From: Aromatoleum evansii | GTDB taxonomy: Bacteria > Pseudomonadota > Gammaproteobacteria > Burkholderiales > Rhodocyclaceae | Length of the DNA: 64,000 bases | Assembly: GCF_012910805.1 (NCBI RefSeq) | Contig: NZ_WTVK01000008.1 | Location: 1 to 64,000, forward strand | Direction: 5' to 3' | Part shown: one piece after another, positions 7,401-21,502 of the stretch | Position numbering within the stretch: the first letter of the stretch is position 1 | Layout: the number at the start of each line of letters is the position of its first letter | Notes under the pieces: model-generated | Told to the model about the DNA's origin: nothing | What the model saw: the letters and a program-made list of their open reading frames with translations, nothing else | Databases searched by the model: none | Made by a program: the position numbers and the translations under genes

Positions 7401-8486
7401 TCACTTTATCTCAGGTGGTCGCGCGACATCCGCGTTCTGGCCGCGATCGCGCAGCGCATGGTCGGCGATCACGAGAGCCAGCATGGCCTCGGCGATCGGC
7501 ACCGCCCGAATTCCGACGCAGGGGTCGTGCCGTCCATGCGTTTCGATCGTGGCCGGCTCGCCATCGACGTCGACGGTATTGCCAGGAACACGGATGCTTG
7601 ACGTAGGCTTGAGGGCGATGCTCGCGAGAACGTCCTGACCGGAGGAGATCCCGCCGAGGGTTCCGCCGGCCCGGTTGCTTCGGAAGCCCATCGGCTCGAT
7701 TTCGTCCCGGTATTCGCTGCCTGTTTGTTCGACGCAGGCAAAGCCGTTCCCGATCTCGACGCCTTTGACCGCATTGATACTCATCAGAGCATGTGCGATG
7801 TCGGCGTCCAAGCGGTCGAACACCGGTTCGCCGAGCCCCACGGGCACGCCGCGGGCAACGACGTTTACCCGCGCGCCGATGGAGTCGCCCGCCTTGCGCA
7901 GGGAATCGAGATAACGCTCGAGTTGTGGGATCTTGTTCGCGTCGGGAAAGAAGAAGGGGTTTCGACCGATCTCGTCCCAATCGATGTGGTCGGCGGAAAT
8001 CGAACCCAACTTCGCGACGTATCCCCCGATTTGCACCGCAAAACGTTGCTTCAGGAATTTCTTGGCGATCGCACCGGCGGCCACGCGTGCAGCGGTCTCG
8101 CGCGACGACGAACGCCCACCTCCCCGATAGTCGCGAATCCCGTATTTGCGCTGATACGTGAAGTCGGCGTGCCCAGGGCGAAACAAGTTCTTGATGCGCG
8201 AGTAATCCGTGGAGCGCTGATCGGTGTTGCGGATCAGGAGAGCGATCGGGGTTCCAGTGGTGCGGCCTTCGAATACGCCCGAGAGTATCTCGACCTTGTC
8301 GTCCTCGGACCGTGCGGTGGTGAAGCGCGACTGTCCGGGTCGGCGGCGGTCGAGGTCCGGCTGTATGTCGGTTTCGTTCAACTCGAGGCCCGGCGGGCAG
8401 CCATCGACGATGCAACCAATGGCCATGCCGTGGCTTTCACCGAAAGTCGTCACCACGAACAGCCTTCCGATCGAGTTTCCTGACAT
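7401..8486 (-). CDS. aroC: Chorismate synthase
   Basis: A 361-aa protein with the three chorismate synthase signatures: [18 protein letters not shown] near the start, [21 protein letters not shown] in the middle (about residues 123-143) and [20 protein letters not shown] at the C-terminus. It converts EPSP to chorismate and needs reduced FMN. The start at 8486 ([10 protein letters not shown]) is the family start; the open frame extends 24 codons further without support. It lies 26 bp after idi on the same strand. All motifs are intact, so it is likely active. A catabolic cluster is an unusual place for aroC, so it is probably a second copy, which cannot be verified from this window. Confidence 0.92.
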
Positions 8487-8512: not shown

Positions 8513-9025
8513 TCAAGCTCGACAACTGACGACGCGATCCAGGCAGGCGGCGAGCCAATAGCTGTAGGCCTCGGGCCGCTTACGCACGTCGGTCGTCAAT
8601 TCCGCCAGAGGAGTCCACTTCCAGTCGTCGGCTTCGTGCGGATTCAATATCGGCCCTCCGTCATACTGGCCGAAGAACACATGATCGAATTCGTGCTCGA
8701 TCAAGCCATTGCCGAGGTCCGCGCAGTACACGAAGCCGAAAGCCTCCTGCAGTTCGCAATCGATCCCCATTTCCTCCTCCAGCCGACGCCGTGCCGCGAC
8801 CGCATTCGCCTCCCCAGGGCGGGGATGGCTGCAGCAGGTATTGCTCCACAGTCCGCCCGAGTGATACTTGGCAAGTGCACGCCGCTGCAGCATGACCTGG
8901 CCGTCGGAATCGAAGACGAATATCGAGATTGCGCGGTGCAGTTCGCCACGGCGATGCGCCGCCATCTTGCCCGTAAAACCGACTTCACAGTCGTGCCGGT
9001 CGACGAGAATGACCTGGTCTTCCAT
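8513..9025 (-). CDS. idi: Isopentenyl-diphosphate delta-isomerase, type I
   Basis: A 170-aa Nudix-fold enzyme interconverting IPP and DMAPP. The catalytic region [12 protein letters not shown] carries the active-site Cys, and [10 protein letters not shown] matches the Nudix-like helix; [10 protein letters not shown] and HEFDHVFFG are also family segments. The start at 9025 ([12 protein letters not shown]) is chosen because it gives the normal family length; the frame runs far upstream as an antisense shadow of iclR. Bacteria using the MEP pathway make both IPP and DMAPP, so idi is dispensable for growth. Its position divergent from iclR and close to ubiX suggests that it supplies the dimethylallyl group for prenyl-FMN. 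A candidate operator lies ~100 bp upstream. Confidence 0.92.
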
Positions 9026-9123
9026 GGAATTTCCACTCGCAAGAGGTTGGCGCCTTTCGCCCGCGGAGGTGGGCTCCGACGGCGCGAATCCGGTCCGCGG
9101 CATATCGCCGCGCGCTGCATGAG

Positions 9124-9140
9124 AGTCCAACCTATGAACT
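9124..9140. promoter_or_regulatory. Candidate IclR operator, site 4 (idi/iclR control region)
   Basis: AGTCCA-ACCTA-TGAACT, one mismatch from the AGTCCA-N5-TGGAnT element found at four other places in this cluster. It lies about 100 bp upstream of idi and 54 bp upstream of the iclR -35 box, so it could act on both divergent genes. Confidence 0.55.
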
Positions 9141-9193
9141 AACATTCGGCGCATCGCCCGCGGTTGAGCAAAATTTATGTCTAGCGGCGCGCA

Positions 9194-9221
9194 TTGACAA
9201 GGTGCAGGCACGGAATAGAAT
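9194..9221 (+). promoter_or_regulatory. Sigma-70-type promoter of iclR
   Basis: TTGACA (9194-9199), a 16-bp spacer and TAGAAT (9216-9221) form a near-consensus promoter. Transcription would begin near 9228, so the translation start must lie further downstream, which supports the GTG at 9254. Confidence 0.6.
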
Positions 9222-9253
9222 TCCACCATATGGACGAAGGATGGGGGTGGGCT

Positions 9254-10042
9254 GTGAGTGACAAGAACGGGCCGGGCGCGGGGACTCAAAGTATTCAGCG
9301 TGCCGCACACGTACTTCGGATCATTGCTTCGCGTAACGGGACGGGGCTGCGTCTGGTGGATATCGCGGCCCATTCGAGGCTGGAACGGCCGACGGCGCAT
9401 CGCATTCTGAAATGCCTGATCGCCGAAGGGCTCGTCAGTCAGGACGCCGAGAGCCGGCGCTATTTTCTGGGGCGTCTGGTTTTCGAACTCGGCCTTGCCG
9501 CCTCGACGAGCTTCAATACGAGAGACCTTTGCCGGCCGGCACTGGTGCGGCTGGCAGAGAAGACCGGTGATACGGTCTTTCTGACGATACGCAGCGGGTT
9601 TGATACGGTGTGCATCGACCGCGCCGAGGGCTCGTTTCCGATCAAGACGCTCACCTTGGACGTCGGTACGCGGCGGCCGCTCGGCGTTGGGGCGGGCGGC
9701 CTGGCGCTGCTGATGTCGCTGCCGGCCCCGGCTGTCGATGAGATTGTTTCGGCGAACGCATTGAGGCTGGGGGCGTACAACGGGCTCACGGTCCCGGTGT
9801 TGATGCGTCTGCTGAAGCGGTGCCGGGAGCTCGGGTACGCCCTCAATGATGCTCATGTCACGCCCGGCGCAACCTCGGTCGGCTTGCCGATCCGTTCGCG
9901 TTCGGGCGAGCCGTTTCTCGCGATCAGTATCGGAGCGATCTCGAGCCGGATGACTGAGGAGCGTCAGCAGGAGCTGGTAGCTCTCATCCGCGCCGAAGTC
10001 ACGATTCTGGAAGGCGCGGTCAGCGACACCGCTCGTCCGTGA
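9254..10042 (+). CDS. IclR-family transcriptional regulator
   Basis: A 262-aa regulator. The N-terminal winged helix (SIQRAAHVLRIIA, then RLVDIAAHSRLERPTAHRIL, about residues 10-55) is followed by an IclR effector domain with CIDRAEGSFPIKTL, GVGAGGLALLMSLP and TSVGLPIRSRSGEPFLAISI. IclR proteins often control aromatic acid catabolism, either activating or repressing. The GTG at 9254 follows GGATGGGGG and lies downstream of the predicted transcription start; the ATG at 9230 would be nearly leaderless. It is divergent from idi-aroC and upstream of ubiX-ubiD. The AGTCCA-N5-TGGA elements in all three control regions are its probable targets. Confidence 0.9.
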   Translation: MSDKNGPGAGTQSIQRAAHVLRIIASRNGTGLRLVDIAAHSRLERPTAHRILKCLIAEGLVSQDAESRRYFLGRLVFELGLAASTSFNTRDLCRPALVRLAEKTGDTVFLTIRSGFDTVCIDRAEGSFPIKTLTLDVGTRRPLGVGAGGLALLMSLPAPAVDEIVSANALRLGAYNGLTVPVLMRLLKRCRELGYALNDAHVTPGATSVGLPIRSRSGEPFLAISIGAISSRMTEERQQELVALIRAEVTILEGAVSDTARP

Positions 10043-10285
10043 GGGCCTGAGTTTCCCCGGTCGCGCGCGGCGCCGGCCCGCCGCCATCCGTTTGACCTCG
10101 GCAGGCCCGCGGTGTCCCGTGACGCCGCGGCGATCGTGTGCGGCTCCTTTTTGCACAACGTCCGGTGACGCGCCGCCGTCGCCGGCAGTTCCCGTTCTAG
10201 CTCCGCGGGCGCCCGTAACGCGTCGGGCGCCGCATTTTCCATTCCCTGTCCGAGCTCCATCGGCCATCGCGCGCGCTGCAAGAAG

Positions 10286-10323
10286 AGTCCAAAATGTGGA
10301 ATTTAAAGTCCACGAGGTGGATT
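10286..10323. promoter_or_regulatory. Two tandem candidate IclR operators upstream of ubiX (sites 1 and 2)
   Basis: Site 1 is AGTCCA-AAATG-TGGAAT (10286-10302) and site 2 is AGTCCA-CGAGG-TGGATT (10307-10323). They start 21 bp apart, two helical turns, so two bound dimers would face the same way. Site 2 touches the proposed -35 box at 10322, an arrangement typical of activators. They occupy the 425-bp gap between iclR and ubiX; 10043-10285 shows nothing else I can support. Confidence 0.6.
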
Positions 10324-10350
10324 GTTTGTGCGGGCGCACATCACTAGAGT
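10322..10350 (+). promoter_or_regulatory. Possible ubiX operon promoter
   Basis: TTGTTT (10322-10327), 17 bp, TAGAGT (10345-10350). The boxes are imperfect, as expected for an activated promoter, and the -35 abuts operator site 2. Confidence 0.35.
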
Positions 10351-10403
10351 TGCATCCAAGTCCAAGTTTGCAAGCGCTAACAGCAGAGGTGGACGGGCGC
10401 CGC

Positions 10404-10420
10404 AGTCCATACTGTGGACT
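10404..10420. promoter_or_regulatory. Candidate IclR operator, site 3 (perfect palindrome)
   Basis: AGTCCA-TACTG-TGGACT, extending to 7-bp perfect arms (10403-10409 and 10415-10421). It lies about 50 bp upstream of the ubiX start codon, downstream of the proposed promoter, where a bound protein could repress or loop to sites 1 and 2. Confidence 0.55.
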
Positions 10421-10467
10421 GTAACAGGCGACCGATGGACCGCAATCATTCCTGGAGTGGGGGACGT

Positions 10468-11070
10468 ATGAAAAGACTGATAGTTGGTATAACGGGCGCC
10501 ACGGGTGTGATCTTCGGCGTCCGCTTGCTCGAGGCGCTGAAGGACACCGACGTCGAAACCCATCTGGTGTTGAGCAAGTGGGCGATCCAAACGATCGAGC
10601 ACGAGACGCCGTATACGGCCAAGCAGGTGCGCGCGCTCGCCGCCGTCGATCACGTCGAGGGCAATATGGGCGCGTCGATCTCGTCGGGCTCGTTCATGAC
10701 CGAGGGCATGGTCATCGCGCCATGCTCGATGCGCAGCCTCGCGGCGATCGCGCACGGCACCGGCGACCATCTGGTGCATCGCGCCGCCGACGTAATCCTG
10801 AAGGAGCGGCGCCGCCTCGTCCTGGTTGCCCGGGAAATGCCCCTGAGCGACATCCATCTGGAAAACATGCTGAAGCTCTCGCGCATGGGGGTGACGATCA
10901 TGCCTCCGATGCCGGCTTTCTATAACCATCCGGAAACGCTCGACGACATGGTCGATCACGTCGTCGCCCGGATTCTCGATCAATTCGGCATTCCGGCCGA
11001 GTTTGCGCGGCGGTGGGAGGGGGAGATGCGCGGCAAGAAAATCGCGAATCTCCGGCCGCAACGGCAATAG
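10468..11070 (+). CDS. ubiX: UbiX-family flavin prenyltransferase
   Basis: A 200-aa flavoprotein. MKRLIVGITGATGVIFG is the N-terminal flavin-binding signature of UbiX/Pad1, and APCSMRSLAAIAHG (about residue 85) plus LVAREMPLSDIHLENML (about residue 120) are further family motifs. UbiX joins a dimethylallyl group from DMAP or DMAPP to FMN, making the prenyl-FMN cofactor of UbiD enzymes. The ATG at 10468 follows GGGGGA. ubiD starts 56 bp downstream. Size and position match the ~22-kDa UbiX-like partner described for anaerobic phthalate degraders. Confidence 0.93.
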   Translation: MKRLIVGITGATGVIFGVRLLEALKDTDVETHLVLSKWAIQTIEHETPYTAKQVRALAAVDHVEGNMGASISSGSFMTEGMVIAPCSMRSLAAIAHGTGDHLVHRAADVILKERRRLVLVAREMPLSDIHLENMLKLSRMGVTIMPPMPAFYNHPETLDDMVDHVVARILDQFGIPAEFARRWEGEMRGKKIANLRPQRQ

Positions 11071-11126
11071 CTCAACCCTCAATAGCTCAATCCGCAATTT
11101 CAAGCTCAATTCAAGGAGACAGTGCG

Positions 11127-12710
11127 ATGAACGATCTGGTGATGAAGGGGATTAGCGAAGCAATGAGCAGGGTTGGCGAAAAGGACCTGCGCCAGGCAGT
11201 CGAATGGTTCCGCAGCAAGGGCTATCTGGTCGAAACCGACAAGGAGGTGAATCCCGATCTCGAGATTACCGGCCTGCAGAAGATCTTCGACGGCAGCCTG
11301 CCGATGCTGTTCAACAACGTCAAAGGCATGCCGCATGCGCGCGCGATCACGAACCTGTTCGGCGACATCCGCGTCGTCGAGGAACTGTTCGGCTGGAAGG
11401 ATTCGCTCGAGCGCGTCAAGAAGGTCGCGCACGCGATCGACCATCCGTTGAAGCCGATCATCATCGGCCAGGACGAGGCGCCGGTGCAGGAAGAGGTCAT
11501 CACCGAGGACCTCGACGTCAACAAGTGGCTCACCGCGATCCGCCATACCCCGCTCGAAACCGAATTGACGATCGGCTCGGGCATCTCCTGCGTCGTCGGG
11601 CCGTACTTCGACGGCGGCAGCCACATCGGCTACAACCGCATGAACTTCCGCTGGGGCAATGTCGGCACGTTCCAGATCTCGCCGGGATCGCACATGTGGC
11701 AGGTGATGACCGAACACTACAAGGACGACGAACCGATTCCGCTGACGATGTGCTTCGGCGTGCCGCCGTCCTGCACCTACGTCGCCGGCGCGGGTTTCGA
11801 CTACGCGATCCTGCCCAAGGGCTGCGACGAGATCGGCATCGCCGGCGCGATCCAGGGATCGCCGGTGCGCCTCGTCAAGTGCCGCACGATCGACGCCTAT
11901 ACCCTCGCCGATGCCGAATACGTGCTGGAAGGCTACCTGCATCCGCGCGACAAACGCTACGAGACCGCCGAGTCCGAGGCGGCGGACATCCAGGGGCGCT
12001 TCCATTTCCACCCCGAATGGGCCGGCTACATGGGCAAGGCCTACAAGGCGCCGACCTTCCACGTGACCGCGATCACGATGCGCAAGCGCGAAAGCAAGCC
12101 GATCATCTTCCCGCTCGGCGTGCATACCTCGGACGATGCGAACATCGATACGTCGGTGCGCGAGTCGGCGATCTTTGCGCTGTGCGAGCGCCTGCAACCC
12201 GGAATCGTGCAGAACGTGCATATCCCTTACTGCATGACCGACTGGGGCGGCTGCATCATCCAGGTGAAAAAGCGCAACCAGATCGAGGAAGGCTGGCAGC
12301 GCAACTTCCTCGCCGCGATCCTCGCCTGCTCGCAGGGCATGCGCCTGGCGATCGCCGTCAGCGAGGACGTCGATATCTACTCGATGGACGACATCATGTG
12401 GTGTCTGACGACGCGCGTGAATCCGCAGACGGACATTCTCAACCCGCTGCCCGGCGGGCGGGGCCAGACTTTCATGCCGGCCGAACGGATGACGTCGGGC
12501 GACAAGCAGTGGACGGCGTCGAACACGCAGTTCGAGGGCGGGATGGGGATCGACGCGACGGTGCCGTACGGCTACGAGAATGACTTCCACCGTCCGGTGT
12601 ATGGCGTCGATCTGGTCAAGCCGGAGAACTTCTTTGGTGCCAAGGACATCGAGAAGATGAAGTCGCGCATGGCCGGCTGGGTCCTGTCGTTGGCTCGCAC
12701 CGGGCGTTAA
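11127..12710 (+). CDS. UbiD-family decarboxylase, probable phthaloyl-CoA decarboxylase
   Basis: A 527-aa UbiD-type decarboxylase. Family segments include GSGISCVVGPYFDGGSHIGY, NRMNFRWGNVGTFQISPGSH, YVLEGYLHPRDKRYETAESE and the C-terminal GIDATVPYG. ATG 11127 has AAGGAG eight bases upstream; the open frame reaching back into ubiX is not coding. UbiD enzymes need prenyl-FMN and Mn/Fe plus K+. The assignment to phthaloyl-CoA (giving benzoyl-CoA) rests on context: UbiX, two CoA-transferases and a TRAP importer, with a subunit near 60 kDa as reported for phthaloyl-CoA decarboxylase. Another aromatic carboxylate cannot be excluded. Confidence 0.85.
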   Translation: MNDLVMKGISEAMSRVGEKDLRQAVEWFRSKGYLVETDKEVNPDLEITGLQKIFDGSLPMLFNNVKGMPHARAITNLFGDIRVVEELFGWKDSLERVKKVAHAIDHPLKPIIIGQDEAPVQEEVITEDLDVNKWLTAIRHTPLETELTIGSGISCVVGPYFDGGSHIGYNRMNFRWGNVGTFQISPGSHMWQVMTEHYKDDEPIPLTMCFGVPPSCTYVAGAGFDYAILPKGCDEIGIAGAIQGSPVRLVKCRTIDAYTLADAEYVLEGYLHPRDKRYETAESEAADIQGRFHFHPEWAGYMGKAYKAPTFHVTAITMRKRESKPIIFPLGVHTSDDANIDTSVRESAIFALCERLQPGIVQNVHIPYCMTDWGGCIIQVKKRNQIEEGWQRNFLAAILACSQGMRLAIAVSEDVDIYSMDDIMWCLTTRVNPQTDILNPLPGGRGQTFMPAERMTSGDKQWTASNTQFEGGMGIDATVPYGYENDFHRPVYGVDLVKPENFFGAKDIEKMKSRMAGWVLSLARTGR

Positions 12711-12740
12711 GCAGCCCCCAGGACGAAAAGGAGCGCACCC

Positions 12741-13934
12741 ATGTTAAGCGCATACCGCGTCCTGGATCTCAGCAACCGCGTCGGCTGGTTGGCCGGGCGG
12801 TTGCTGGCCGATCTCGGGGCCGATGTCATCAAGGTGGAGGGGCCCGGCGTCGCCATCGACGCCCCCGACTGGCAGGCCTACAACGTCAACAAGCGTCTGC
12901 TCCGGCTCGATCTGGAAACGTCCGAAGGTCGATCGCAGTTCGACCGGCTCATCGACCATGTGGACATTCTCATCGAGTCGGTTCTGCCGGGCGAACCGGC
13001 GGCCGCGTGGCTTGACCCCGCCCGGTTACGCCAGCGCAATCCGCGCCTGATCCAGGTGTCGGTGACGCCGTTCGGCACGGACGGCCCACGCGCCGAATGG
13101 CTCGCCTCGGACCTCGAATTGATGGCGGCAGGCGGCGCGATGTCGCTCGCCGGCGAGCCGGGCGAGACACCGCTGCGCGTCACGGTGCCGCAGTCCTACA
13201 GCTGGGCGGGCGCGCAGGCGGCGGTCGGCGCCCTCACCGCGCTGATCCACCGCACCGCGACCGGTCAGGGCCAGCGCGTCGACGTCTCGGCCCAGGCCGC
13301 CGTGATCCTCGCGCTGTCGCACGCCCCGGCGTTCTGGGACATGGAAGGGACGAATCCGACCCGTGCCGGCGCGTTTGTCAGCGGCCGTTCGGTGAAGGGG
13401 GCGCGCTTTCGCGCCTTCTGGCCCTGCGCGGACGGCTATGTGAACTTCGTCCTGTACGGCGGGCCGGCCGGACGGCGCACCAACGCCCGACTCGTCGAGT
13501 GGATGCGCGAGTGCGGCGTGGAGCTCGGGGTGCTGGCGCAGATCGACTGGATGCGCTTCGATCCAAAGCTCGCGAGTCAGCAAGACGTCGATGACATGGA
13601 GCGCCCGATCGCCGAGTTCTTTCTTCGCCTCGCGAAGCGGGACTTTCTCGAGCAGGCGAGTCGACGGGAAATGCTCGGCTACCCCGTTTCCACCGTGCAG
13701 GACATCGCGACCGACCCGCAACTCGGCGCCCGAGCGTTCTGGCAGGACCTGCCGGGGCCCGACGGCGCCCCCCAGCGACATTGCGGCAGTTTCGCGATCG
13801 TCGATCGGGTGCGTCAGCCGCTGCGCCATCGGCCCGGCACGGAGATCGATGTCGCAAGCTTGCTCGCTGAATGCGGCGTGGCCGCGGAAGGGGCGAAGGC
13901 CGCCACGGCGGCGACGGAGGGGCAATTCGTATGA
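12741..13934 (+). CDS. Family III (CaiB/BaiF) CoA-transferase, probable succinyl-CoA:phthalate CoA-transferase subunit
   Basis: 397 aa. The fold is recognisable from YRVLDLSNRVGWLAGRLLAD-type N-terminus, LGADVIKVEGPG and LETSEGRSQFDRLIDHVDIL. The usual catalytic-Asp region of CaiB proteins (N-K-x-x-x-x-L-D-L followed by ADVLVEN) appears in altered form (VDILIESVLPG). Two adjacent family III genes suggest a heteromeric enzyme, as in succinyl-CoA:phthalate or benzylsuccinate CoA-transferases. The start follows AAAAGGAG, and the stop overlaps the next gene (ATGA at 13931). Substrate is inferred from the UbiD/UbiX context. Confidence 0.82.
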   Translation: MLSAYRVLDLSNRVGWLAGRLLADLGADVIKVEGPGVAIDAPDWQAYNVNKRLLRLDLETSEGRSQFDRLIDHVDILIESVLPGEPAAAWLDPARLRQRNPRLIQVSVTPFGTDGPRAEWLASDLELMAAGGAMSLAGEPGETPLRVTVPQSYSWAGAQAAVGALTALIHRTATGQGQRVDVSAQAAVILALSHAPAFWDMEGTNPTRAGAFVSGRSVKGARFRAFWPCADGYVNFVLYGGPAGRRTNARLVEWMRECGVELGVLAQIDWMRFDPKLASQQDVDDMERPIAEFFLRLAKRDFLEQASRREMLGYPVSTVQDIATDPQLGARAFWQDLPGPDGAPQRHCGSFAIVDRVRQPLRHRPGTEIDVASLLAECGVAAEGAKAATAATEGQFV

Positions 13935-15151
13935 GCGCGATTTCTCAAGCCCTCGACGGGGTCAAGGTGGCCGAGTTCGGTGCGTATGCGGCCGGACCCC
14001 ATATCGGCAAGATGCTCGCGACGTTCGGTGCGACCGTAGTGCACGTCGAGTCGCATCAACGTCCGGACGGGTTCCGCACCGAATATCCGCCCTTCAAGGA
14101 CGGCAAGCCAGGACCGGATCGGAGCGGCTGCTTCGCGATCCTCAATGACTCGAAGCACGCGGTGACGCTCGATCTGAAGACGCCGGCCGGCATCGACCTC
14201 GCCAAACGACTCGTCGGCTGGGCCGACATCGTCGTCGAGAACATGCGTCCGGAGGTGATGGACCGGCTCGGACTGGGCTACGAGACGGCGCGACGATTGA
14301 ACCCGGGCATCGTCATGATCTCGAGCTGCAACATGGGCCAGACCGGTCCGCGCGCGCACACGCCGGGCTTCGGCTCGCAGTTGTCGGCGCTTGCCGGGTT
14401 CTGCGGCCTCACCGGTACGCCGGACGGCCCGCCGATGCTTCTCTACGGCCCTTACATCGACTTCATCGCCTCGACCCTGGGGGCGACGGCGGTGCTGGCC
14501 GCGCTCGACGGTCAGCGGCGAACCGGGCAGGGGGCGTGGATCGACCTGGCGCAATATGAAAGCGGCCTGATGTTCGTCGCCGGCGCACTGCTTGATTACC
14601 ACGTCAGCGGGCGCGTCGCCGAACGGGCCGACAACCGCGATCCCCGCGCCGCACCGCACAACGCGTACCGCTGCCGCGACGGCGCCTGGCTCGCGCTGTC
14701 GTGCTGGTCGGACGATGAATTCGGGCGCCTTGTCGAGACGCTGGGGTTCCCGGAACTGCGCGCCGACAGGCGCTTCGCGACGCTCGACTCGCGCCAGGCA
14801 AACCTCCGCGATCTCGACGAGCTCATTGCCGCAGGCCTGCGGTGGCGGGGCGCCGAGGAGACCGCCGGGCGGCTCCAGTCCGCACGGGTTCACGCCTATC
14901 CCGTCAACACGATCGCCGATTTGTTCCGCGACCCGCAACTCGCGTATCGACGCATCTGGCGTCGTCGGCGGCATGACGGGATCGGCGATGTCGCCTGCTA
15001 TTTTTCGGCGTTCGATCTGTCCGCCACTCCCGGCGAGGTGACCGCGGCCGCCCCCGGCATCGGCCAGCACAATGCCTACGTGTTCCAGGAGCTCCTCGGC
15101 CTGTCCGGCGAGGAATATGCGGCCTATCAGGGCAAGGGCGCCTTTCAATGA
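13931..15151 (+). CDS. Family III (CaiB/BaiF) CoA-transferase, second subunit
   Basis: 406 aa. VKVAEFGAYAAGPHIGKMLA, GATVVHVESHQRPDG and ADIVVENMRPEVMDRLGLGY are classic CaiB/BaiF motifs, and the aspartate expected to carry the acyl-CoA adduct lies in the later LAQYESGL region or its neighbours. It overlaps the previous CoA-transferase by 4 bp, so the two are translationally coupled and probably form one complex that transfers CoA from succinyl-CoA to the aromatic acid. The upstream open frame beginning at 13871 is an overlap artefact. A strong hairpin follows the gene. Confidence 0.85.
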   Translation: MSAISQALDGVKVAEFGAYAAGPHIGKMLATFGATVVHVESHQRPDGFRTEYPPFKDGKPGPDRSGCFAILNDSKHAVTLDLKTPAGIDLAKRLVGWADIVVENMRPEVMDRLGLGYETARRLNPGIVMISSCNMGQTGPRAHTPGFGSQLSALAGFCGLTGTPDGPPMLLYGPYIDFIASTLGATAVLAALDGQRRTGQGAWIDLAQYESGLMFVAGALLDYHVSGRVAERADNRDPRAAPHNAYRCRDGAWLALSCWSDDEFGRLVETLGFPELRADRRFATLDSRQANLRDLDELIAAGLRWRGAEETAGRLQSARVHAYPVNTIADLFRDPQLAYRRIWRRRRHDGIGDVACYFSAFDLSATPGEVTAAAPGIGQHNAYVFQELLGLSGEEYAAYQGKGAFQ

Positions 15152-15174
15152 GGCGCGCCGGCTCGCGGCGGCGA

Positions 15175-15213
15175 CGCCCTTGCCCGCGAGGTCCGTGAGC
15201 ACGGGCAAGGGCG
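15175..15213 (+). terminator. 12-bp perfect GC-rich hairpin after the CoA-transferase genes
   Basis: CGCCCTTGCCCG (15175-15186) and CGGGCAAGGGCG (15202-15213) are perfect 12-bp inverted repeats around a 15-nt loop. No T-run follows, so it is a likely rho-independent-like pause or mRNA stabiliser between the catabolic genes and the transporter. A third partial copy (GGCAAGGGCGCC) occurs at the end of the upstream gene near 15131. Confidence 0.5.
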
Positions 15214-15269
15214 CCCGCCCCCGGCCCGGCGGGGTCGCGGAAAAACCGGGTTGGCCGGACGAGGACACG

Positions 15270-15286
15270 AGTCCAATTCGTGGAAC
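15270..15286. promoter_or_regulatory. Candidate IclR operator, site 5 (TRAP transporter control region)
   Basis: AGTCCA-ATTCG-TGGAAC. It is centred about 74 bp upstream of the start expected from the promoter at 15316-15344, a usual activator distance, and links the transporter to the same regulon as ubiX and idi. Confidence 0.55.
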
Positions 15287-15315
15287 CTTATTTCGGTCGG
15301 GCGAGCCCGGCTGCG

Positions 15316-15344
15316 TTGATCGCGACAAACGCAGTCCTGATAAT
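15316..15344 (+). promoter_or_regulatory. Promoter of the TAXI-TRAP genes
   Basis: TTGATC (15316-15321), a 17-bp spacer and GATAAT (15339-15344). A leader of roughly 100 nt precedes the start codon at 15450. Confidence 0.45.
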
Positions 15345-15449
15345 CCGGGCAAGGAAACGCGATGAAACCACAACAAAGATAAGTCCTTGATCGGGACCCC
15401 GCTCCGACGCTGCTAGTGATTCAGAAGCGACTACAAGGAGGAGACAGAC

Positions 15450-16430
15450 ATGTTGCGCATCATCATTTGCGGCCTGGCGTTCGCGCTTGCGAGCCTGGGC
15501 GTATCGGCCGAATCGTACAAGATGACCCTATCCGGCGCGAGTCCGAGCGGACTGTGGACCATGATCGGCATGGGTATCGACGGCGCGGTCAAGGACAGCT
15601 TTCCGGGCTCGACCATCACCTACCAGACCTCCGGCGGGGGGCTCGCGAATATCGCGCTGATCGATCAGGGCAAAGTCGAATTGGGAATCGCGCACGACGT
15701 CGAATTGCACATTGCCAATCTCGGTGCGAAGCCCTTCCCCAAGCCGATTACCAGCCTGCGGGCGATTGCACTGCTATACAACTGGGCGCCGATGCAGATG
15801 GTCATCACGAAGGCGTTTGCGGAAAAATATGGCATCCACAGCTTCGACGATATCGCGGTAAAGAAACCGCCGCTGCGGGTGGCCTTCAACAAGCGGGGCA
15901 ACATCACTGAGCATGTCGCGGTAGCGATGTTCAAGGCGATCGGTGTGACGGTGGACGACATCAGGAATTGGGGTGGCGACATCATTTACGCAGCATCCGA
16001 TGAGCAGGGCGATCTGATGAAGGACAAGAGGATCGACATGTTCGCGAATGGCGTGTTCGTCCGGACCAGTTTCATCGTCCAGGCCGGCGACGCCGTCGAG
16101 CTCGTTCTGCTGCCGGTTTCCGAGCGCGTGATCAACAATCTGTCCCAAGAGCTGCACGTTGCGCCCTTCGTCATCAAGGCTGGAAGCTATCCCTGGCAGA
16201 CCGTCGATGTCCCGACCGTCGCACTCGGCGCCGTGTTGGCGGTCAATAGCAGGATGGACGACAAGGTCGCGCATGATCTCGCCGGCGCGCTGCACAAACA
16301 CATCGAGCGCCTCCAGGGGGCGCACAGCAGCCTGAAGGTGATCACGCCCGAGTTCCTCGCGAGCCAGAAGGTCATCCCGTATCACCCGGGGGCGGAAGCC
16401 TATTACCGGGAAGCGGGCCTGCTGAAATAG
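15450..16430 (+). CDS. TAXI-family TRAP transporter solute-binding protein
   Basis: 326 aa with a cleavable signal peptide (LRIIICGLAFALASLGVSA) and the TAXI binding-protein pattern: SGASPSGLWTMIGMGIDGAV, TYQTSGGGLANIALIDQGKV, VELGIAHDVELH. It is periplasmic and delivers a small acid to the fused membrane subunit encoded next. The ATG at 15450 follows AAGGAGGAG. In anaerobic phthalate degraders a transporter of this class accompanies the CoA-transferase/decarboxylase genes, so phthalate is the expected ligand; that is inference. Confidence 0.88.
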   Translation: MLRIIICGLAFALASLGVSAESYKMTLSGASPSGLWTMIGMGIDGAVKDSFPGSTITYQTSGGGLANIALIDQGKVELGIAHDVELHIANLGAKPFPKPITSLRAIALLYNWAPMQMVITKAFAEKYGIHSFDDIAVKKPPLRVAFNKRGNITEHVAVAMFKAIGVTVDDIRNWGGDIIYAASDEQGDLMKDKRIDMFANGVFVRTSFIVQAGDAVELVLLPVSERVINNLSQELHVAPFVIKAGSYPWQTVDVPTVALGAVLAVNSRMDDKVAHDLAGALHKHIERLQGAHSSLKVITPEFLASQKVIPYHPGAEAYYREAGLLK

Positions 16431-16638
16431 GTAGGACGAGTCAGCACCGGGGCGGTCGATGCGCGCCGCCCACCCGGTCCTTGCCGACATAACCGGGCAA
16501 GGGTCACGGACTGTCATCGGCCCTGCGGGGCCGGGCGATTCACGTCTGCCTGTAGCCCCGACCCCATCGGTATACGCGTTTCGTTCGCTTCGACGCGCCC
16601 CGGTCGATCGATCTTCGTCGCGGGTCTTCAGGACGTGA

Positions 16639-18591
16639 ATGCCATGCGGAGAACTGAACGTGTCCACTATGAGCCTTTCGTTTCTAAGCCGATTCCTGAC
16701 GACCGGCGCCCGCCGCGATCCGGCCAGTTGGGCCGGGCACTTGCTCAAACCCCTGGCGGCGCTGATCGCGCTCGGGATCGTGTGGGTGACGACGATCCAG
16801 ATGGTGCCGATCTATTCGATGACGATCGTATTTCTCGGGCTGATGCTCGCGCTGGTTTTCCTGACCACCGGCGCGACGGCTGCGTCGAGCCGCGACCGCG
16901 TGCCGGCCTCGGATCTGCTTCTTGCCGCCGCCAGCCTTGCCATTTCGGCGTACTTCTGGTTCCACAATGAGCGGATCGTCACCCGCATCACGCTGCTCGA
17001 TGAACTCACTCCGTGGGACGTCGTCTGTGGCAGCGGATTGCTGCTCGTCACCCTCGAGGCAACGCGGCGCACGGTCGGGCCCGGCCTCACGTCGATCGTG
17101 CTGGCGTTCCTCGCCTACAATCTTTGGGGCCATCAGCTGCAGGGCGCATTCGGCCACGGTGAGATCGACTATCTCCACTTTCTCGACGTGCTCGCGTTCA
17201 CGACCGACGGGATCTTCGGAGCCCCGATCCGGGTCGCACTGACCTACGTCTTCTTGTTCGGCCTGTTCGGAACGTTTCTTTCGCGCACCGGCGGCGGGGA
17301 CTTCTTCTTCGACGCGGCCTCCGCATTGAGCGGGAAGAGCCCCGGCGGCCCAGCGAAGGTCGCGGTCGTGTCGTCAGGCCTCTACGGCACGATCTCCGGA
17401 AGCCCGACGGCCGACGTGGTCACGACCGGATCGATTACGATCCCGATGATGAAGCGGCTCGGTTACTCCGGCGCGATGGCCGGCGGGATCGAGGTTGCGG
17501 CCTCGACGGGCGGATCCATCCTGCCCCCGGTGATGGGTTCGGCGGCCTTCATCATGGCCGAGTTCACCGGCATCCGTTACACGGAGATCGCCGTCGCGGC
17601 GATTGTGCCGGCCTTTCTCTACTACTTCTGCGTATACCTGCAGGTGCATCTGTATTCGCTCAAGGCGGGAATTACCGGACTCGAAACGGTGCCCGCGTTC
17701 GGCGAGACGATGCGGCGCGGCGGAATGTTCGCCGTTCCGTTGATCGCTCTGGTGGTCGCGCTGCTTGTCGGATACTCGCCCAATTTCGTCGCCGCGTTCG
17801 GCACGCTCGCCGTGATCGCGGTGGCGATGTCCAGGCGCGACACGCGTCTCGGTTTCACGGCCTTCTACGAGATCCTGGCGGAGTCGACCCTGCGGGTCGT
17901 GCCGGTCGTGGCTGCCTGCGCCGCGGCCGGACTGGTCGTCGGCGGCTTGTCGATGACCGGCCTGGGCGCAAAGGTCGCCGATTTGATCTTCCTGATCGCC
18001 GGGTCCAACCTGCTTCTGACGTTGGCGGTCGCGGCCGTCGTCACGCTATGCCTGGGCATGGGCATGCCCACCCCGAGCGTCTATATTCTCGCGGCGGTGC
18101 TGGTCGCGCCGGCGCTGACGAAGCTCGGCGTGTCCGTGCTCGCCGCGCACCTGTTCCTTGTCTATTACGCGAGCCTGTCGGCGATGACGCCGCCGATCGC
18201 CGTCGCGGCGTTTGCGGCCGCGCCGATCGCCCACGCGAATCCCCTCGCGGTCGGCCTCGCGGCGGTGCGAATGTCGATGACCGCGTTCGTCGTTCCCTTC
18301 GCCTTCGTCTACCAAACCGGTGTTCTTCTGTCCGGCACGCCGTTGGAGCTGGTGCTCGCCGGCGCGGCGGTGACGATGGCCGTCGCCTGCCTGTGCCTCG
18401 CGGCCGAGGGCTACTGGAAGGGGCGGCTGCGCGGCACGCATCGGCTGTGCTTCTTCGTCGCCGGCGTCGGCCTGATGGTCCCTTCGCATCAGGTTCAATT
18501 GGCTTCGGCCGTCGCGGCGGGGATCGGCGCGTGGATCGTGCTGCGCGGCAACTTGCGGGGCAAGAGTGGCTGCGACGCGCCGTCGAAGTGA
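16639..18591 (+). CDS. TRAP transporter permease, fused small and large membrane subunits (DctQM-like)
   Basis: About 650 residues with many hydrophobic segments. The C-terminal two thirds match the large TRAP subunit: YGTISGSPTADVVTTGSITI, EVAASTGGSILPPVMGSAAF, LGMGMPTPSVYILAAVLVAP, SLSAMTPPIAVAAFAAA. The N-terminal part carries the small-subunit helices, as usual for TAXI-type TRAP systems. It uses a sodium gradient to import the acid presented by the binding protein. The start is uncertain: ATG 16639 (AGGA five bases upstream) or GTG 16660 (GGAGA eight bases upstream). Residues 16431-16638 hold only GC-rich repeats. Confidence 0.88.
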   Translation: MPCGELNVSTMSLSFLSRFLTTGARRDPASWAGHLLKPLAALIALGIVWVTTIQMVPIYSMTIVFLGLMLALVFLTTGATAASSRDRVPASDLLLAAASLAISAYFWFHNERIVTRITLLDELTPWDVVCGSGLLLVTLEATRRTVGPGLTSIVLAFLAYNLWGHQLQGAFGHGEIDYLHFLDVLAFTTDGIFGAPIRVALTYVFLFGLFGTFLSRTGGGDFFFDAASALSGKSPGGPAKVAVVSSGLYGTISGSPTADVVTTGSITIPMMKRLGYSGAMAGGIEVAASTGGSILPPVMGSAAFIMAEFTGIRYTEIAVAAIVPAFLYYFCVYLQVHLYSLKAGITGLETVPAFGETMRRGGMFAVPLIALVVALLVGYSPNFVAAFGTLAVIAVAMSRRDTRLGFTAFYEILAESTLRVVPVVAACAAAGLVVGGLSMTGLGAKVADLIFLIAGSNLLLTLAVAAVVTLCLGMGMPTPSVYILAAVLVAPALTKLGVSVLAAHLFLVYYASLSAMTPPIAVAAFAAAPIAHANPLAVGLAAVRMSMTAFVVPFAFVYQTGVLLSGTPLELVLAGAAVTMAVACLCLAAEGYWKGRLRGTHRLCFFVAGVGLMVPSHQVQLASAVAAGIGAWIVLRGNLRGKSGCDAPSK

Positions 18592-18637
18592 CCGGTGGCC
18601 GTCGCTTGAGGAGGCCCGAAAGTCTACCGAGGTAAGC

Positions 18638-19204
18638 GTGTTCAACGATCCGGTGACGCTAATGATCACACGAGTCCCGCGAGTAGGGCGGGAGAGGGAG
18701 TGGGAGTCGCTGATGGAGGGGGCCCTCCGCGCCGCGCGCGCCTTCCCGGGCAACCTCGGAACGCTGATCCTCAAACCCGGCCGCGAGGGCGAACGTGCGT
18801 ATCGAATTCTCGTGCGCTTCGACAGCTCCCGGAATCTGCGTCACTGGGAGGAATCGCCGCAGCGCCAGAAGGTGCTGAAGCGGCTGGAATCGGTGGAGAG
18901 TGAACCAGTGCTGATCGAACGCGCCATTGGCCTGGAGACATGGTTCGAGCCGCCGGGGACCGCGGTTCCGTCCCAGCCAATGGCTCCGCCGCGTCACAAG
19001 ATGATGATAGCCAGCAGTATCGGCGTGTATCTGACGATCACGCCGATGTTGATGGTGTTACGGCCCGTGCTCGATCGGCTACCGGTCTATGTTGCTACGA
19101 TGGTGCTCGTGCCGATCGCGGTGCTCGTGCTGACCTATGTCGTTATGCCCGCGATTACGAAAGTGCTACGCCCGTGGCTCTATCGGGGGAGTACGGGTGG
19201 GTGA
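18638..19204 (+). CDS. ABM-domain protein with C-terminal membrane segments
   Basis: 188 aa. The N-terminal ~100 residues resemble the antibiotic biosynthesis monooxygenase fold (VTLMITRVPRVGREREWESL, then LRHWEESPQRQKVLKRLESV), and two hydrophobic helices (GVYLTITPMLMVLRPVL and VATMVLVPIAVLVLTYVVM) end the protein. Relatives are annotated as ABM superfamily membrane proteins of unknown function. The GTG start at 18638 follows GAGGT; the frame upstream overlaps the TRAP gene. Its position in the cluster suggests a link to the pathway, but no reaction can be named. Confidence 0.65.
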   Translation: MFNDPVTLMITRVPRVGREREWESLMEGALRAARAFPGNLGTLILKPGREGERAYRILVRFDSSRNLRHWEESPQRQKVLKRLESVESEPVLIERAIGLETWFEPPGTAVPSQPMAPPRHKMMIASSIGVYLTITPMLMVLRPVLDRLPVYVATMVLVPIAVLVLTYVVMPAITKVLRPWLYRGSTGG

Positions 19205-19285
19205 TCAGGGGTTGGTGCGCGTGCGTTATCTCGATGGTCGTCGGGTCATCGACCCGGTTCTTATTCACGAGGGGAGGCAGATGTC

Positions 19286-19915
19286 ATGCGCTTGACAAGT
19301 AGTTGTTTTCAGGTCGATGGAAGAATCCCGGACGAATGCGCATTCGCGGTGCATCACCCGGAGTCGCGCATCGTCCTGTCACGGAATCTCAACCCCGACT
19401 TGGCATGGAGCGATCTCCCCGCGGGAACGCGATCGCTCGTGGTCATCTGTCACGACCCGGATGTCCCCTCCGTGCTTGACGACTTCAACCAGGAAGGGCG
19501 CATCGTTTCGGCTGGGACGCCGCGGATCGACCTGTATCACTGGGCTCTGGTCGATGTGCCTCCCGATCTGCAGGGCATTGGGAAGGGGGAATTCTCGGAC
19601 GCGGTCGTCCCCGGCGGCAAATCCGGGCCGCAGGCGCCGCATGGTACCCGTCAGGGGCTCAATGACTACACGCAGTGGTTCGCCGGCGACGAGCGCATGG
19701 CCGGACAGTATTTCGGCTACGACGGGCCATGTCCGCCGTGGAACGACGAAATTCCGCATCGCTACGTGTTCACGTTGTACGCGCTGGACACGCCGACCTG
19801 CCCGGTGGCGGGAATCTTCGGCGCACGCGACGTCATCGCGGCCGTTCGTCCGCATCTGTTGGGCACCGCGACCCTGACCGGCCGCTACACGCTGAATCCC
19901 GAGGTTGCCATCTGA
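19286..19915 (+). CDS. YbhB/YbcL-type phosphatidylethanolamine-binding protein family
   Basis: 209 aa with the PEBP fold segments NLNPDLAWSDLPAGTRSLVV, CHDPDVP, LYHWALVDVP, GYDGPCPPWNDEIPHRYVFT and LYALD. The D-P-D-x-P and G-P-x-P-P..H-R-Y motifs that form the anion pocket are intact. Bacterial members have no settled role. ATG 19286 follows GAGGGGAGG. It lies between the ABM protein and nadC on the same strand, apparently in the catabolic operon. Confidence 0.85.
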   Translation: MRLTSSCFQVDGRIPDECAFAVHHPESRIVLSRNLNPDLAWSDLPAGTRSLVVICHDPDVPSVLDDFNQEGRIVSAGTPRIDLYHWALVDVPPDLQGIGKGEFSDAVVPGGKSGPQAPHGTRQGLNDYTQWFAGDERMAGQYFGYDGPCPPWNDEIPHRYVFTLYALDTPTCPVAGIFGARDVIAAVRPHLLGTATLTGRYTLNPEVAI

Positions 19916-19940
19916 CGGGGCGTGGCTGGAACCGATATTC

Positions 19941-20786
19941 ATGACCAACGATGGAGACTTCGAATTGCTTACTTCAGCTTGCGTCCGCGCCGCGCTCGAG
20001 GAGGACATCGGCGGCGCCGACTATACGGCGATGCTGGTGCCGGCGGAGCGCCAGGCCCAGGCGATCGTGATCAGCCGCGAAGCAGCGGTGGTGTGCGGGG
20101 GGGCTTGGTTCGAGCAGTGTTTCCGCGAACTCGACGCGGCCGTCCAGATTCGGTGGCGCGCGAAGGAGGGGGAGGAGGTCGCGCCGGGGGACGTCGTGTG
20201 CGAGATCCGCGGCAACGCGCGAGCGCTGCTGACCGCCGAGCGCACCGCGCTCAATTTCCTGCAGACCCTTTCCGCCACCGCGACCGCGACGCGGCGATAT
20301 GTGGCGATGGTCGCCGGAACGAGGGCGCGCATCTACGACACGCGCAAGACGCTGCCGGGGCTGCGCCTGGCCCAGAAGTACGCGGTACGGGTCGGCGGCG
20401 GACACAACCACCGCATGGGACTTTACGCGGGGGTATTGATCAAGGAGAACCATATCGCGGTGGCGGGAGGAATTCCCCAGGCATTGAGCGCCGCGGCGGA
20501 AATTGCACCGGCGGAAATCCCGTTGCAGATCGAAGTGGAGGACCGCGCGGAGCTTGAGGCGGCGCTCGCCGCCGGCGCGAAGCTGATCCTGCTCGACAAC
20601 TTCAGTGTCGAGCAAATGCGCCACGCGGTCGCCATCACGGCGGGGCGGGCCGAGCTCGAAGCGTCAGGCGGAATCACGCTCGACAACTTGCGCGAGGTGG
20701 CGGAAAGCGGCGTGGATCGCATCTCCATCGGAAGCATCACGAAGGACGTCAAGGCGATCGACTTATCGATGCGAACCGCTTGGTAG
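19941..20786 (+). CDS. nadC: Quinolinate phosphoribosyltransferase (decarboxylating)
   Basis: 281 aa with the QPRTase motifs ERTALNFLQTLSATAT, YDTRKTLPGLRLAQKYA, GGGHNHRMGLY, VLIKENHI, ILLDNFSVEQM and ISIGSITKDVKAIDLSMR. It makes nicotinate mononucleotide from quinolinate and PRPP for NAD synthesis. The residues expected to hold the quinolinate carboxylates (Arg and Lys in TRKT, His-Arg in NHR, Lys in IKENH) are present, while the Asp usually found in the G-L-x-D segment before L-I-K is Ala here. nadA and nadB are absent, so this is not a NAD operon. A paralogue tolerant of phthalate, a known QPRTase ligand, is an attractive idea. The start ATG has only a weak ribosome site. Confidence 0.9.
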   Translation: MTNDGDFELLTSACVRAALEEDIGGADYTAMLVPAERQAQAIVISREAAVVCGGAWFEQCFRELDAAVQIRWRAKEGEEVAPGDVVCEIRGNARALLTAERTALNFLQTLSATATATRRYVAMVAGTRARIYDTRKTLPGLRLAQKYAVRVGGGHNHRMGLYAGVLIKENHIAVAGGIPQALSAAAEIAPAEIPLQIEVEDRAELEAALAAGAKLILLDNFSVEQMRHAVAITAGRAELEASGGITLDNLREVAESGVDRISIGSITKDVKAIDLSMRTAW

Positions 20787-20797
20787 GGGAGAGGACG

Positions 20798-21502
20798 ATG
20801 TTCCAGAAGCTTGCTATCGAGGAACCGGAACAAAGGGCGGCACCGGGCGGTGCGGACCGGGGGTGCGACGTCAGCGGCACGGCCCAGCGTCGCGTGCGTT
20901 TCATCGCCTCGAGCCGACTGCCCACGCGTTGGGGCACGTTCGTCGCACACAGTTTCGTCGATTCGGTGCACAAGGAGCACCTCGTTCTGACACTGGGCGA
21001 GGTCGCCGGCGCAGGGGCGGTCCTCACGCGTATCCATTCGGAATGCCTAACCGGCGATGCTTTGTTCAGCCTGCGCTGCGACTGTGGCCATCAATTGCGC
21101 AGCGCACTGAAACGGATCGGCAGCGAAGGCCGGGGCGCGCTGCTCTACCTGCGCCAGGAGGGGCGGGGTATCGGGCTCCACAATAAAATCAGGGCGTATG
21201 GTCTGCAGGATTGCGGCGCCGATACCGTGGATGCCAATTTACGCTTGGGCTTTTCTGCCGATGCCCGGGAATATGCGGTCTGCGGGCCGATGCTTACACA
21301 TATCGGCGTGCGGCGACTTCGCCTGATGACGAACAATCCGGCGAAGACCGATGCCTTGACCGCAATGGGATTCCAAGTCGTCGAGCGGGTGGTATTGCCG
21401 AGCGGACGAAACGCGTACAACGCGGCCTACCTCGACACGAAGGCGTGCCGCATGGGACATGTCTTCGATCTCGTGGGCGAGAGTATCGGCGCGGAGCAAT
21501 AG
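20798..21502 (+). CDS. ribA: GTP cyclohydrolase II
   Basis: 234 aa with all GTP cyclohydrolase II motifs: RIHSECLTGDALFSLRCDCG (zinc cysteines), YLRQEGRGIGLHNKIRAYGL, DANLRLGF and RLMTNNPAKTDAL. It opens GTP in the first step of riboflavin synthesis. It is a stand-alone RibA without the DHBP synthase domain and has a longer N-terminus than E. coli RibA. It follows nadC by 11 bp with a GGGGAGAGG ribosome site. In a cluster that needs prenyl-FMN, a dedicated RibA probably boosts flavin supply. It is the last gene of the catabolic block. Confidence 0.92.
   Translation: MFQKLAIEEPEQRAAPGGADRGCDVSGTAQRRVRFIASSRLPTRWGTFVAHSFVDSVHKEHLVLTLGEVAGAGAVLTRIHSECLTGDALFSLRCDCGHQLRSALKRIGSEGRGALLYLRQEGRGIGLHNKIRAYGLQDCGADTVDANLRLGFSADAREYAVCGPMLTHIGVRRLRLMTNNPAKTDALTAMGFQVVERVVLPSGRNAYNAAYLDTKACRMGHVFDLVGESIGAEQ

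Follow-up and report, generated by a model that had tools for sequence, protein, structure and literature searches.

A candidate phthalate regulon of Aromatoleum evansii with idi, ribA and a second nadC

Aerobic phthalate clusters can carry a second, dissimilar copy of nadC, the gene for quinolinate phosphoribosyltransferase (QPRT), among their phthalate genes, as with OphE of Burkholderia cepacia DBO1 and phtD; Chang and Zylstra are said to have found in 1999 that ophE is phthalate-induced and needed for the full growth rate. For the anaerobic pathway the closest described system is plasmid 2 (NC_006824.1) of Aromatoleum aromaticum EbN1, a strain named as an anaerobic phthalate degrader in a 2026 review (PMC13040137), in which phthaloyl-coenzyme A (phthaloyl-CoA) is described as very unstable and high decarboxylase levels are thought to offset this instability. 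Here, we describe a related locus of Aromatoleum evansii within a stretch of 64,000 nucleotides (assembly GCF_012910805.1, contig NZ_WTVK01000008.1, positions 1 to 64,000), referred to below as the window. The locus holds idi, encoding a type-1 isopentenyl-diphosphate isomerase, beside genes for the flavin prenyltransferase UbiX and the decarboxylase UbiD, and it ends with nadC and ribA. With a probability of about 0.7, we read it as a phthalate regulon that would combine a dedicated supply of the UbiX substrates with an antimetabolite bypass protecting the synthesis of nicotinamide adenine dinucleotide (NAD), the functions being assigned from gene content.

The island and its counterpart in EbN1

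A preliminary description of this DNA had delimited the cluster at 8513 to 21502, which is correct, as these positions are the stops of idi and ribA, respectively. Profile matches bear out the genes it named (idi, ubiX, ubiD, two family III CoA-transferase genes, TAXI-TRAP genes and ribA), but two genes ahead of ribA, one for a PEBP protein and a second nadC, had been overlooked. The minus-strand idi is divergent from iclR and has a second aroC directly 3′ of it on the same strand; from iclR onward, ubiX, ubiD, the two CoA-transferase genes, TAXI, TRAP, ABM, PEBP, nadC and ribA follow on the plus strand. Operator-like sites were scored with a position weight matrix (PWM) trained solely on sites found upstream of ubiX in other loci, with the window excluded and with 12.0 bits for the weakest training site. 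The features are listed below (ORF, open reading frame).

7401..8486, minus strand: aroC, second chorismate synthase, downstream of idi (NF003793, 499.6 bits; start by homology)
8513..9025, minus strand: idi, type-1 isopentenyl-diphosphate isomerase (NF002995 and TIGR02150 above cut-off)
9125..9139, no strand: weak operator-like site between idi and iclR (PWM 8.0 bits, tenth in the window)
9194..10042, plus strand: iclR-family regulator, longest ORF (PF01614, PF09339; start probably ~9248 from EbN1 homology)
9221..9235, no strand: operator-like palindrome TTCCACCATATGGAC at the idi/iclR divergent promoters (PWM 20.1 bits, second best in the window)
10287..10301, no strand: operator-like site 1 before ubiX, GTCCAAAATGTGGAA (PWM 21.7 bits, best in the window)
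10308..10322, no strand: accessory operator-like site GTCCACGAGGTGGAT (PWM 9.4 bits)
10405..10419, no strand: operator-like site 2 before ubiX, GTCCATACTGTGGAC (PWM 14.6 bits)
10468..11070, plus strand: ubiX, flavin prenyltransferase (PF02441; 93% to EbN1)
11127..12710, plus strand: ubiD, phthaloyl-CoA decarboxylase-like (PF01977, PF20696, PF20695; 93% to EbN1 plasmid UbiD)
12741..13934, plus strand: family III CoA-transferase 1 (PF02515)
13931..15151, plus strand: family III CoA-transferase 2 (PF02515; start by homology)
15271..15285, no strand: operator-like site before the TAXI-TRAP genes (PWM 13.6 bits, fourth best in the window)
15450..16430, plus strand: TAXI-TRAP solute-binding protein (TIGR02122 above cut-off)
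16639..18591, plus strand: TRAP fused permease (TIGR02123 above cut-off)
18566..19204, plus strand: ABM-domain protein, longest ORF (PF03992, 24.1 bits against a cut-off of 23.1; 64% EbN1 match)
19286..19915, plus strand: PEBP/YbhB-like protein, linked to nadC (TIGR00481 above cut-off)
19935..20786, plus strand: nadC, second quinolinate phosphoribosyltransferase (TIGR00078, 315.6 bits)
20798..21502, plus strand: ribA, stand-alone GTP cyclohydrolase II (NF001591 and TIGR00505 above cut-off)

The window UbiD is 93% identical over 527 amino acids (aa) to the UbiD of EbN1 plasmid 2, with the other 374 matching plasmid records below 60%; the CoA-transferases are 76% and 78% identical to their EbN1 counterparts and the IclR regulator 87%, in a match that begins at residue 19. 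EbN1 likewise has idi, a divergent iclR, ubiX, ubiD, two CoA-transferase genes, TAXI-TRAP and ABM genes, the order and orientation of idi, iclR, ubiX and ubiD being identical, and it also carries operator-like sites before idi and ubiX (pairs in EbN1). However, it has two ubiX-ubiD units, separated by genes for an ABC transporter, another UbiD, a porin and a DMT transporter; the second unit goes with the CoA-transferases and TAXI-TRAP, and an IS5 transposase gene stands before TAXI. The EbN1 cluster ends at the ABM protein, PEBP, nadC and ribA being absent after TRAP-ABM, and has transposase genes beyond idi instead of aroC. Duplicated ubiX-ubiD units are also present in G470 and G483 (G labels denote genomes of a 297-genome sample of the same family, G000 being the window's own), an arrangement that would fit a high demand.

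The linked genes that mark an anaerobic o-phthalate cluster, for UbiX, two PF02515 proteins and TAXI-TRAP, are all present in the window. We consider it very improbable that the cluster serves to break down some other acid through a UbiD-type decarboxylase: the CoA-transferases are absent in 40 of 79 loci with UbiD relatives, partly owing to contig ends (the best 80 of 154 relatives from named genomes were kept, giving 79 loci, labeled L), but the 93% UbiD identity and the gene order match the plasmid cluster of EbN1, the degrader named in the review, and an additional nadC would be sensible if the substrate mimics quinolinate.

Two minus-strand ORFs (10303-11109 and 11106-12590) belong to no family, lie antisense to ubiX and ubiD and were rejected as genes, and a 608-aa minus-strand ORF at 8513-10339 overextends the idi frame, idi itself being confined to the last 170 residues. 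Distant UbiD paralogues, 24-26% identical to the main one, occur in several phthalate islands (L009 17021-18397, L013 14206-15489, L050 14044-15321, L173 2927-4204 and L174 2797-4074), and the ABM-domain (18566-19204) and PEBP/YbhB (19286-19915) proteins also recur in such islands.

idi, its association with UbiD and a candidate operator

The idi gene reaches 156.9 bits for NF002995 (cut-off 127) and 111.5 bits for TIGR02150 (cut-off 105.8), and its product aligns to solved IDI structures with conservation of the Cys of NTCCSHP and the Glu-x-Glu region, which we take to be functional residues. A search of the window genome found this type-1 idi only, and just 3 of 200 genomes of the order have one, the window's own being included in both numbers. 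Among the 297 family genomes, idi was found in 10 (9 above cut-off) and a close relative of the window UbiD in 10, giving 9 with both, 1 with UbiD only (G313, an 87% complete assembly in which UbiD is split by contig ends), 1 with idi only (G310, where idi is below cut-off and has an internal stop) and 286 with neither. Fisher tests, in which kinship is ignored, gave p = 2e-16 over the 297 genomes, 2e-5 over 68 genera (three with both and, above cut-off, none with only one) and 0.0013 within the window's genus (5 with both, 7 with neither). The presence of idi with this UbiD is more than chance, and the co-occurrence with related phthalate clusters that the preliminary description had led us to look for was found in all 9 above-cut-off idi genomes of the 297. 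The two genes lie within 5 kb of each other in 8 of the 10 UbiD genomes and on different contigs in G266; 11 of 12 idi places in the family sample (one on a duplicate contig) are near a ubiX, although for G310 this rests on a 51% tblastn match. All nine genomes with idi and UbiD contain ispH and therefore use the methylerythritol phosphate (MEP) pathway.

The source genomes of 50 of the 79 named loci (L007-L056) were searched for idi, which is above cut-off in 16. Fourteen of these loci have a UbiD of at least 84% identity (unrounded; L018 rounds to 84, is excluded and has no idi), and nine of their genomes hold idi above cut-off and one more at 104 versus 105.8 bits, compared with 7 of the other 36. 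Eight of the 14 (L007, L009, L010, L011, L013, L014, L016 and L050) show linkage of idi to the phthalate regulator or to the cluster, and in L009, L010 and L014 it is linked to iclR and operator-like sites with UbiD farther away or on another contig. Within the 79 loci themselves, many of which are cut by contig ends, idi is seen in 7, nadC in 5 and ribA in 3. In three alphaproteobacterial loci (L039, L044 and L046) a UbiD of 75-76% identity lies no more than 4 kb from idi, and those CoA-transferases and iclR are absent. In the idi tree, from which the degenerate G310 gene was left out, nine island loci form one group with moderate support (82/84) and gammaproteobacterial L016 and the three alphaproteobacterial loci fall outside it, which suggests that island idi was gained separately in the L016 and L039/L044/L046 lineages.

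Intergenic regions were read, and a palindrome near GTCCATAATATGGAC was seen before ubiX and before idi. The four best PWM positions of the 64-kb window are 10287 and 10405 (ubiX), 9221 (idi/iclR) and 15271 (before TAXI), ranking 10287, 9221, 10405 and 15271. Among 33 ubiX-upstream regions, loci of the iclR architecture mostly have two sites and several regions have none; the pairs stand near -62 and -180 in the closest loci, with variable placement elsewhere. The 9221 site touches the end of an 11/12 sigma-70-like iclR promoter, and a 9/12 idi promoter lies on the opposite strand. For counting, sites of at least 12 bits within 350 bp were accepted and a locus's own ubiX sites were left out of the PWM. 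By this count a site stands before 13 of 13 idi transcription units of iclR-type islands (10/10, then L219, L217 and L220), seven of the first ten carrying a pair; in L220, a contig in the genome of L010, it stands before a ribA-idi operon and not before idi itself. Outside such islands, a site was found at 1 of 16 idi loci (1/8 and 0/8, two of the latter eight below the idi cut-off), and the background is 4 sites in 222 kb, or 0.006 expected per 350 bp. The sole non-island promoter with a site is that of an isoprenoid-type idi in G138, and this site is weaker than the island ones.

At the majority of island loci idi diverges from iclR, so the site could serve iclR itself; in L013 and L016, however, idi has a promoter of its own, apart from iclR, and this too carries a site pair (for L016, at -249 and -343, both missed by a first 220-bp scan and caught by the 350-bp scan). 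A candidate operator common to the idi and ubiX upstream regions lends support to the earlier placing of idi with ubiX in a supply role. The ABM gene of L220 has an operator-like pair of its own, and a further site of 13.9 bits lies outside the island at window positions 36631-36645.

Idi supplies dimethylallyl diphosphate (DMAPP) to all prenyl routes, so idi might meet another isoprenoid need during growth on phthalate, such as quinones or membrane lipids, and not that of UbiX. We regard this as quite unlikely. The idi of G138, which shares the TIGR02150 enzyme family with island idi, does precede a gene that looks like dxs on visual inspection of its initial residues; island idi, in contrast, adjoins ubiX or iclR, directly preceding ubiX in L013 and L050, and the scan of island proteins revealed no further isoprenoid gene. 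Moreover, EbN1 (L160 9811-11310) and A. toluclasticum (L218 7577-8755) each have a second, chromosomal idi that directly precedes a different ubiX, 52-53% identical to the window's; the 17-19 kb read shows no phthalate genes, and neither of these idi genes has an operator-like site. These pairs represent a second, non-phthalate association of idi with UbiX; the one in EbN1 has thiolase-like and SDR genes nearby, and no match to UbiD was found in 19 kb. Of 130 plasmid records with an idi match, the contexts of EbN1 and an Ensifer plasmid were opened, and in the latter the neighbors of idi are genes for a cytochrome P450 and an isopentenyl transferase rather than ubiX.

The island is found on a conjugative plasmid in EbN1, with transposase genes near idi, and on a plasmid in A. 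buckelii, and this mobility raises the question of whether idi and ribA are passengers without a role in phthalate growth. The neighboring aroC looks like one. There are two aroC copies in the window genome, and an aroC follows idi in four islands (the window, G331:C1:42333-43349, G483:C1:3323670-3326108 and L220 5464-6502); the idi-linked genes of the last three are 79-82% like the window aroC, other copies being 66-69%, and only the window gene is intact, the others showing an in-frame stop, an interruption and a frameshift. A functional pairing of idi with aroC was rejected, as no aroC was found beside idi in EbN1, L013, L050, L011 or L016 and, of the four adjacent copies, three are broken; aroC is probably cargo outside the route to prenylated flavin mononucleotide (prenyl-FMN). 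The idi reading frame, however, is open where aroC is broken, is under purifying selection (ratio of nonsynonymous to synonymous rates, dN/dS, 0.07-0.28 in 6 pairs) and is kept in several arrangements, with operator-like sites even where it does not adjoin iclR. Even with the decayed idi of G310, which lies among ABM and ribA fragments, we think it unlikely that idi and ribA are mere passengers. The G310 locus (L163 8918-16498), with a phenylphosphate carboxylase beta gene adjacent, resembles the remains of a phthalate island. Chorismate synthase, the aroC product, uses reduced FMN; its presence here may or may not be coincidental.

The nadC and ribA genes

The window nadC is an intact second copy, the other lying at G000:C232 (two places above cut-off). 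It matches 19 distinct PDB sequences, including 4kww, the human enzyme with phthalate, and contains DTRKTLPGLR, GGGHNHRMGL and LIKENHI, presumably quinolinate-site motifs. A nadC match at E ≤ 1e-80 was found in 276 of the 297 family genomes and two copies in G000, G377, G483 and G356, three of these with UbiD; this threshold misses island nadC of ~55% identity (L050 and L174), so two-copy genomes are undercounted. A PEBP match precedes nadC in L008 (a fragment), L009, L014 and L164.

In the nadC tree (midpoint root), the window copy groups with those of G483, A. toluclasticum, L008 and L009 (100/97), Sterolibacterium-type island copies form one group with a Massilia aerobic-phthalate copy (100/100), and these two groups join (92/83) away from the housekeeping nadC of relatives. 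Acidovorax and Polaromonas CJ2 form a separate group, in which the Acidovorax row was tagged as aerobic-phthalate although its context shows no named phthalate gene. This topology points to at least two probable origins of phthalate-linked nadC, with one lineage apparently serving aerobic as well as anaerobic phthalate pathways. Plasmid records matching nadC number 304, and six of their contexts were opened. Two of these six (Massilia WG5 and Polaromonas CJ2) have a gene for 4,5-dihydroxyphthalate decarboxylase near nadC; the Acidovorax carolinensis gene has Rieske and PDR/VanB genes and no named phthalate gene around it, the Neptuniibacter gene is near TAXI-TRAP but not in a phthalate set, and the Pseudomonas veronii and Sphingomonas parapaucimobilis contexts look housekeeping.

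Human QPRT binds phthalic acid with a dissociation constant of 5.2 μM, versus 4.8 μM for quinolinate, in highly similar binding modes (PMC4726147), and a Sphingobium aerobic cluster has phtD, QPRT being cited as enhancing growth on phthalate (PMC6051330). As in the OphE and phtD clusters, the window holds a second, dissimilar nadC among phthalate genes, but here it belongs to a predicted anaerobic, CoA-dependent pathway and adjoins ribA. By this analogy the window nadC would not be part of prenyl-FMN supply and is best explained as relief of phthalate inhibition of QPRT. A phthalate-resistant active site was looked for and none was found: two columns separate the 9 phthalate-linked rows from the 29 rows of relatives, and neither lies in the motifs. 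More enzyme, and not a resistant enzyme, is therefore the likely remedy, nadC acting by dosage and not by altered specificity.

The ribA gene scores 259.7 bits against a cut-off of 148 (NF001591), TIGR00505 also being above cut-off, and its product aligns to 2bz0 with the region of the Cys triad conserved, residues that we assume to be functional; the window genome has one more GTP cyclohydrolase II copy elsewhere. The preliminary description had made ribA part of the supply line, and its co-occurrence is only partly as expected: ribA occurs in six islands, one of them with a ribA-idi operon, but a close match is present in only 2 of the 10 family UbiD genomes and the EbN1 cluster has none. 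Close matches occur in 7 of the 297 family genomes (G000 at 100% and G483 at 78%, both with UbiD, and five of another genus at 59-62%, without UbiD) and in 4 of the 14 named loci with UbiD of at least 84% (L008, L009, L014 and the genome of L010).

Whether ribA instead belongs with nadC in a general cofactor-relief block is a possibility we hold as tentative but not negligible. The two are adjacent, ribA directly after nadC, in five of the six islands with a near full-length ribA match (the window, G483, L008, L009 and L014), and the ribA proteins of these five group together (100/100, in a tree of only 10 rows). In L220, however, ribA, idi and a frameshifted aroC are co-directional behind an operator-like pair, on a contig with TAXI-TRAP, ABM and iclR genes and with no nadC in the 6.8 kb read, and the nadC genes of L013 and L050 are not immediately followed by ribA (the L174 contig stops a short way past nadC). 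The ribA-idi operon of L220 is the best single piece of support for a joint supply of both UbiX substrates, as far as gene order can indicate it.

Downstream of the island, window positions 22160-23281 and 23760-30392 encode a regulator with helix-turn-helix and M78 peptidase domains beside a DUF4011 helicase of 2210 aa that carries an MTES_1575 nuclease domain, an arrangement that resembles a defence locus.

Proposed mechanism and its meaning

In the regulon that we propose, phthalate would be the inducer and IclR its regulator. Phthalate would enter through TAXI-TRAP and be converted by the CoA-transferases to unstable phthaloyl-CoA, which a very abundant UbiD would decarboxylate to benzoyl-CoA, and this abundance of UbiD would raise the demand for prenyl-FMN. 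IspH and the MEP pathway yield more isopentenyl diphosphate (IPP) than DMAPP. Because the pathway gives mostly IPP, Idi would be made together with UbiX, turning IPP into DMAPP or the monophosphate DMAP. RibA can limit flavin synthesis and, where present, would push flux to flavin so that FMN does not become limiting for UbiX. Intracellular phthalate would mimic quinolinate and block the housekeeping NadC, and the extra NadC would sustain NAD synthesis. DMAPP had been given in the preliminary description as the donor used by UbiX; this is not certain here, as UbiX enzymes differ in their use of DMAP or DMAPP (PMC6541611). The interpretation offered there is borne out in part: the place given to idi is strongly supported by co-occurrence, linkage and the candidate operator, and the support for ribA is real but thinner, while a role for nadC had gone unnoticed.

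Several observations weigh against the proposed regulon. IclR is inferred as the binder of the palindromes by proximity only, and the 12-bit line was chosen after the first scans. The G138 promoter also exceeds 12 bits, and 220-bp shuffle tests gave p ≤ 0.01 for two of four controls (G138 and G059), which calls for caution with the p values of single sites. No site was found directly before PEBP-nadC-ribA in the window, where a weak terminator-like hairpin precedes PEBP, and only one of six other nadC/PEBP upstream regions (L008) has one; the idi genes of L039, L044 and L046, near their 75-76% UbiD, also lack a site. Among the 14 loci with UbiD of at least 84%, idi was not found in four (L008, L017, L019 and L026) and lies elsewhere in two (L012 and L015), and ribA is absent from the EbN1 cluster and from most clusters. 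Finally, some of the 13 island loci are closely related to one another (EbN1, G470 and G482; G331 and G483), and because the island moves as a unit, the genomes do not count as independent events.

Neither isopentenyl nor nadC appears as a word in the main text of the 2026 phthalate review (PMC13040137), the other pathway papers that it cites lying outside this search. More broadly, we suggest, at about even odds, that type-1 idi in Betaproteobacteria with the MEP pathway is mainly an accessory of flavin prenylation, gained or kept for catabolic UbiX, placed under a catabolic regulator and bundled with ribA and nadC as a mobile support kit. UbiD enzymes can be hard to obtain in active form, with prenyl-FMN supply as one suspected reason, and an island that seems to co-regulate Idi, and sometimes RibA, with UbiX gives a testable idea for engineered UbiD hosts. 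The proposed reading of the island would also explain isolated idi genes in bacteria that use the MEP pathway, and the nadC finding would extend the protection of NAD synthesis from phthalate, described for aerobic degraders, to the anaerobic pathway.

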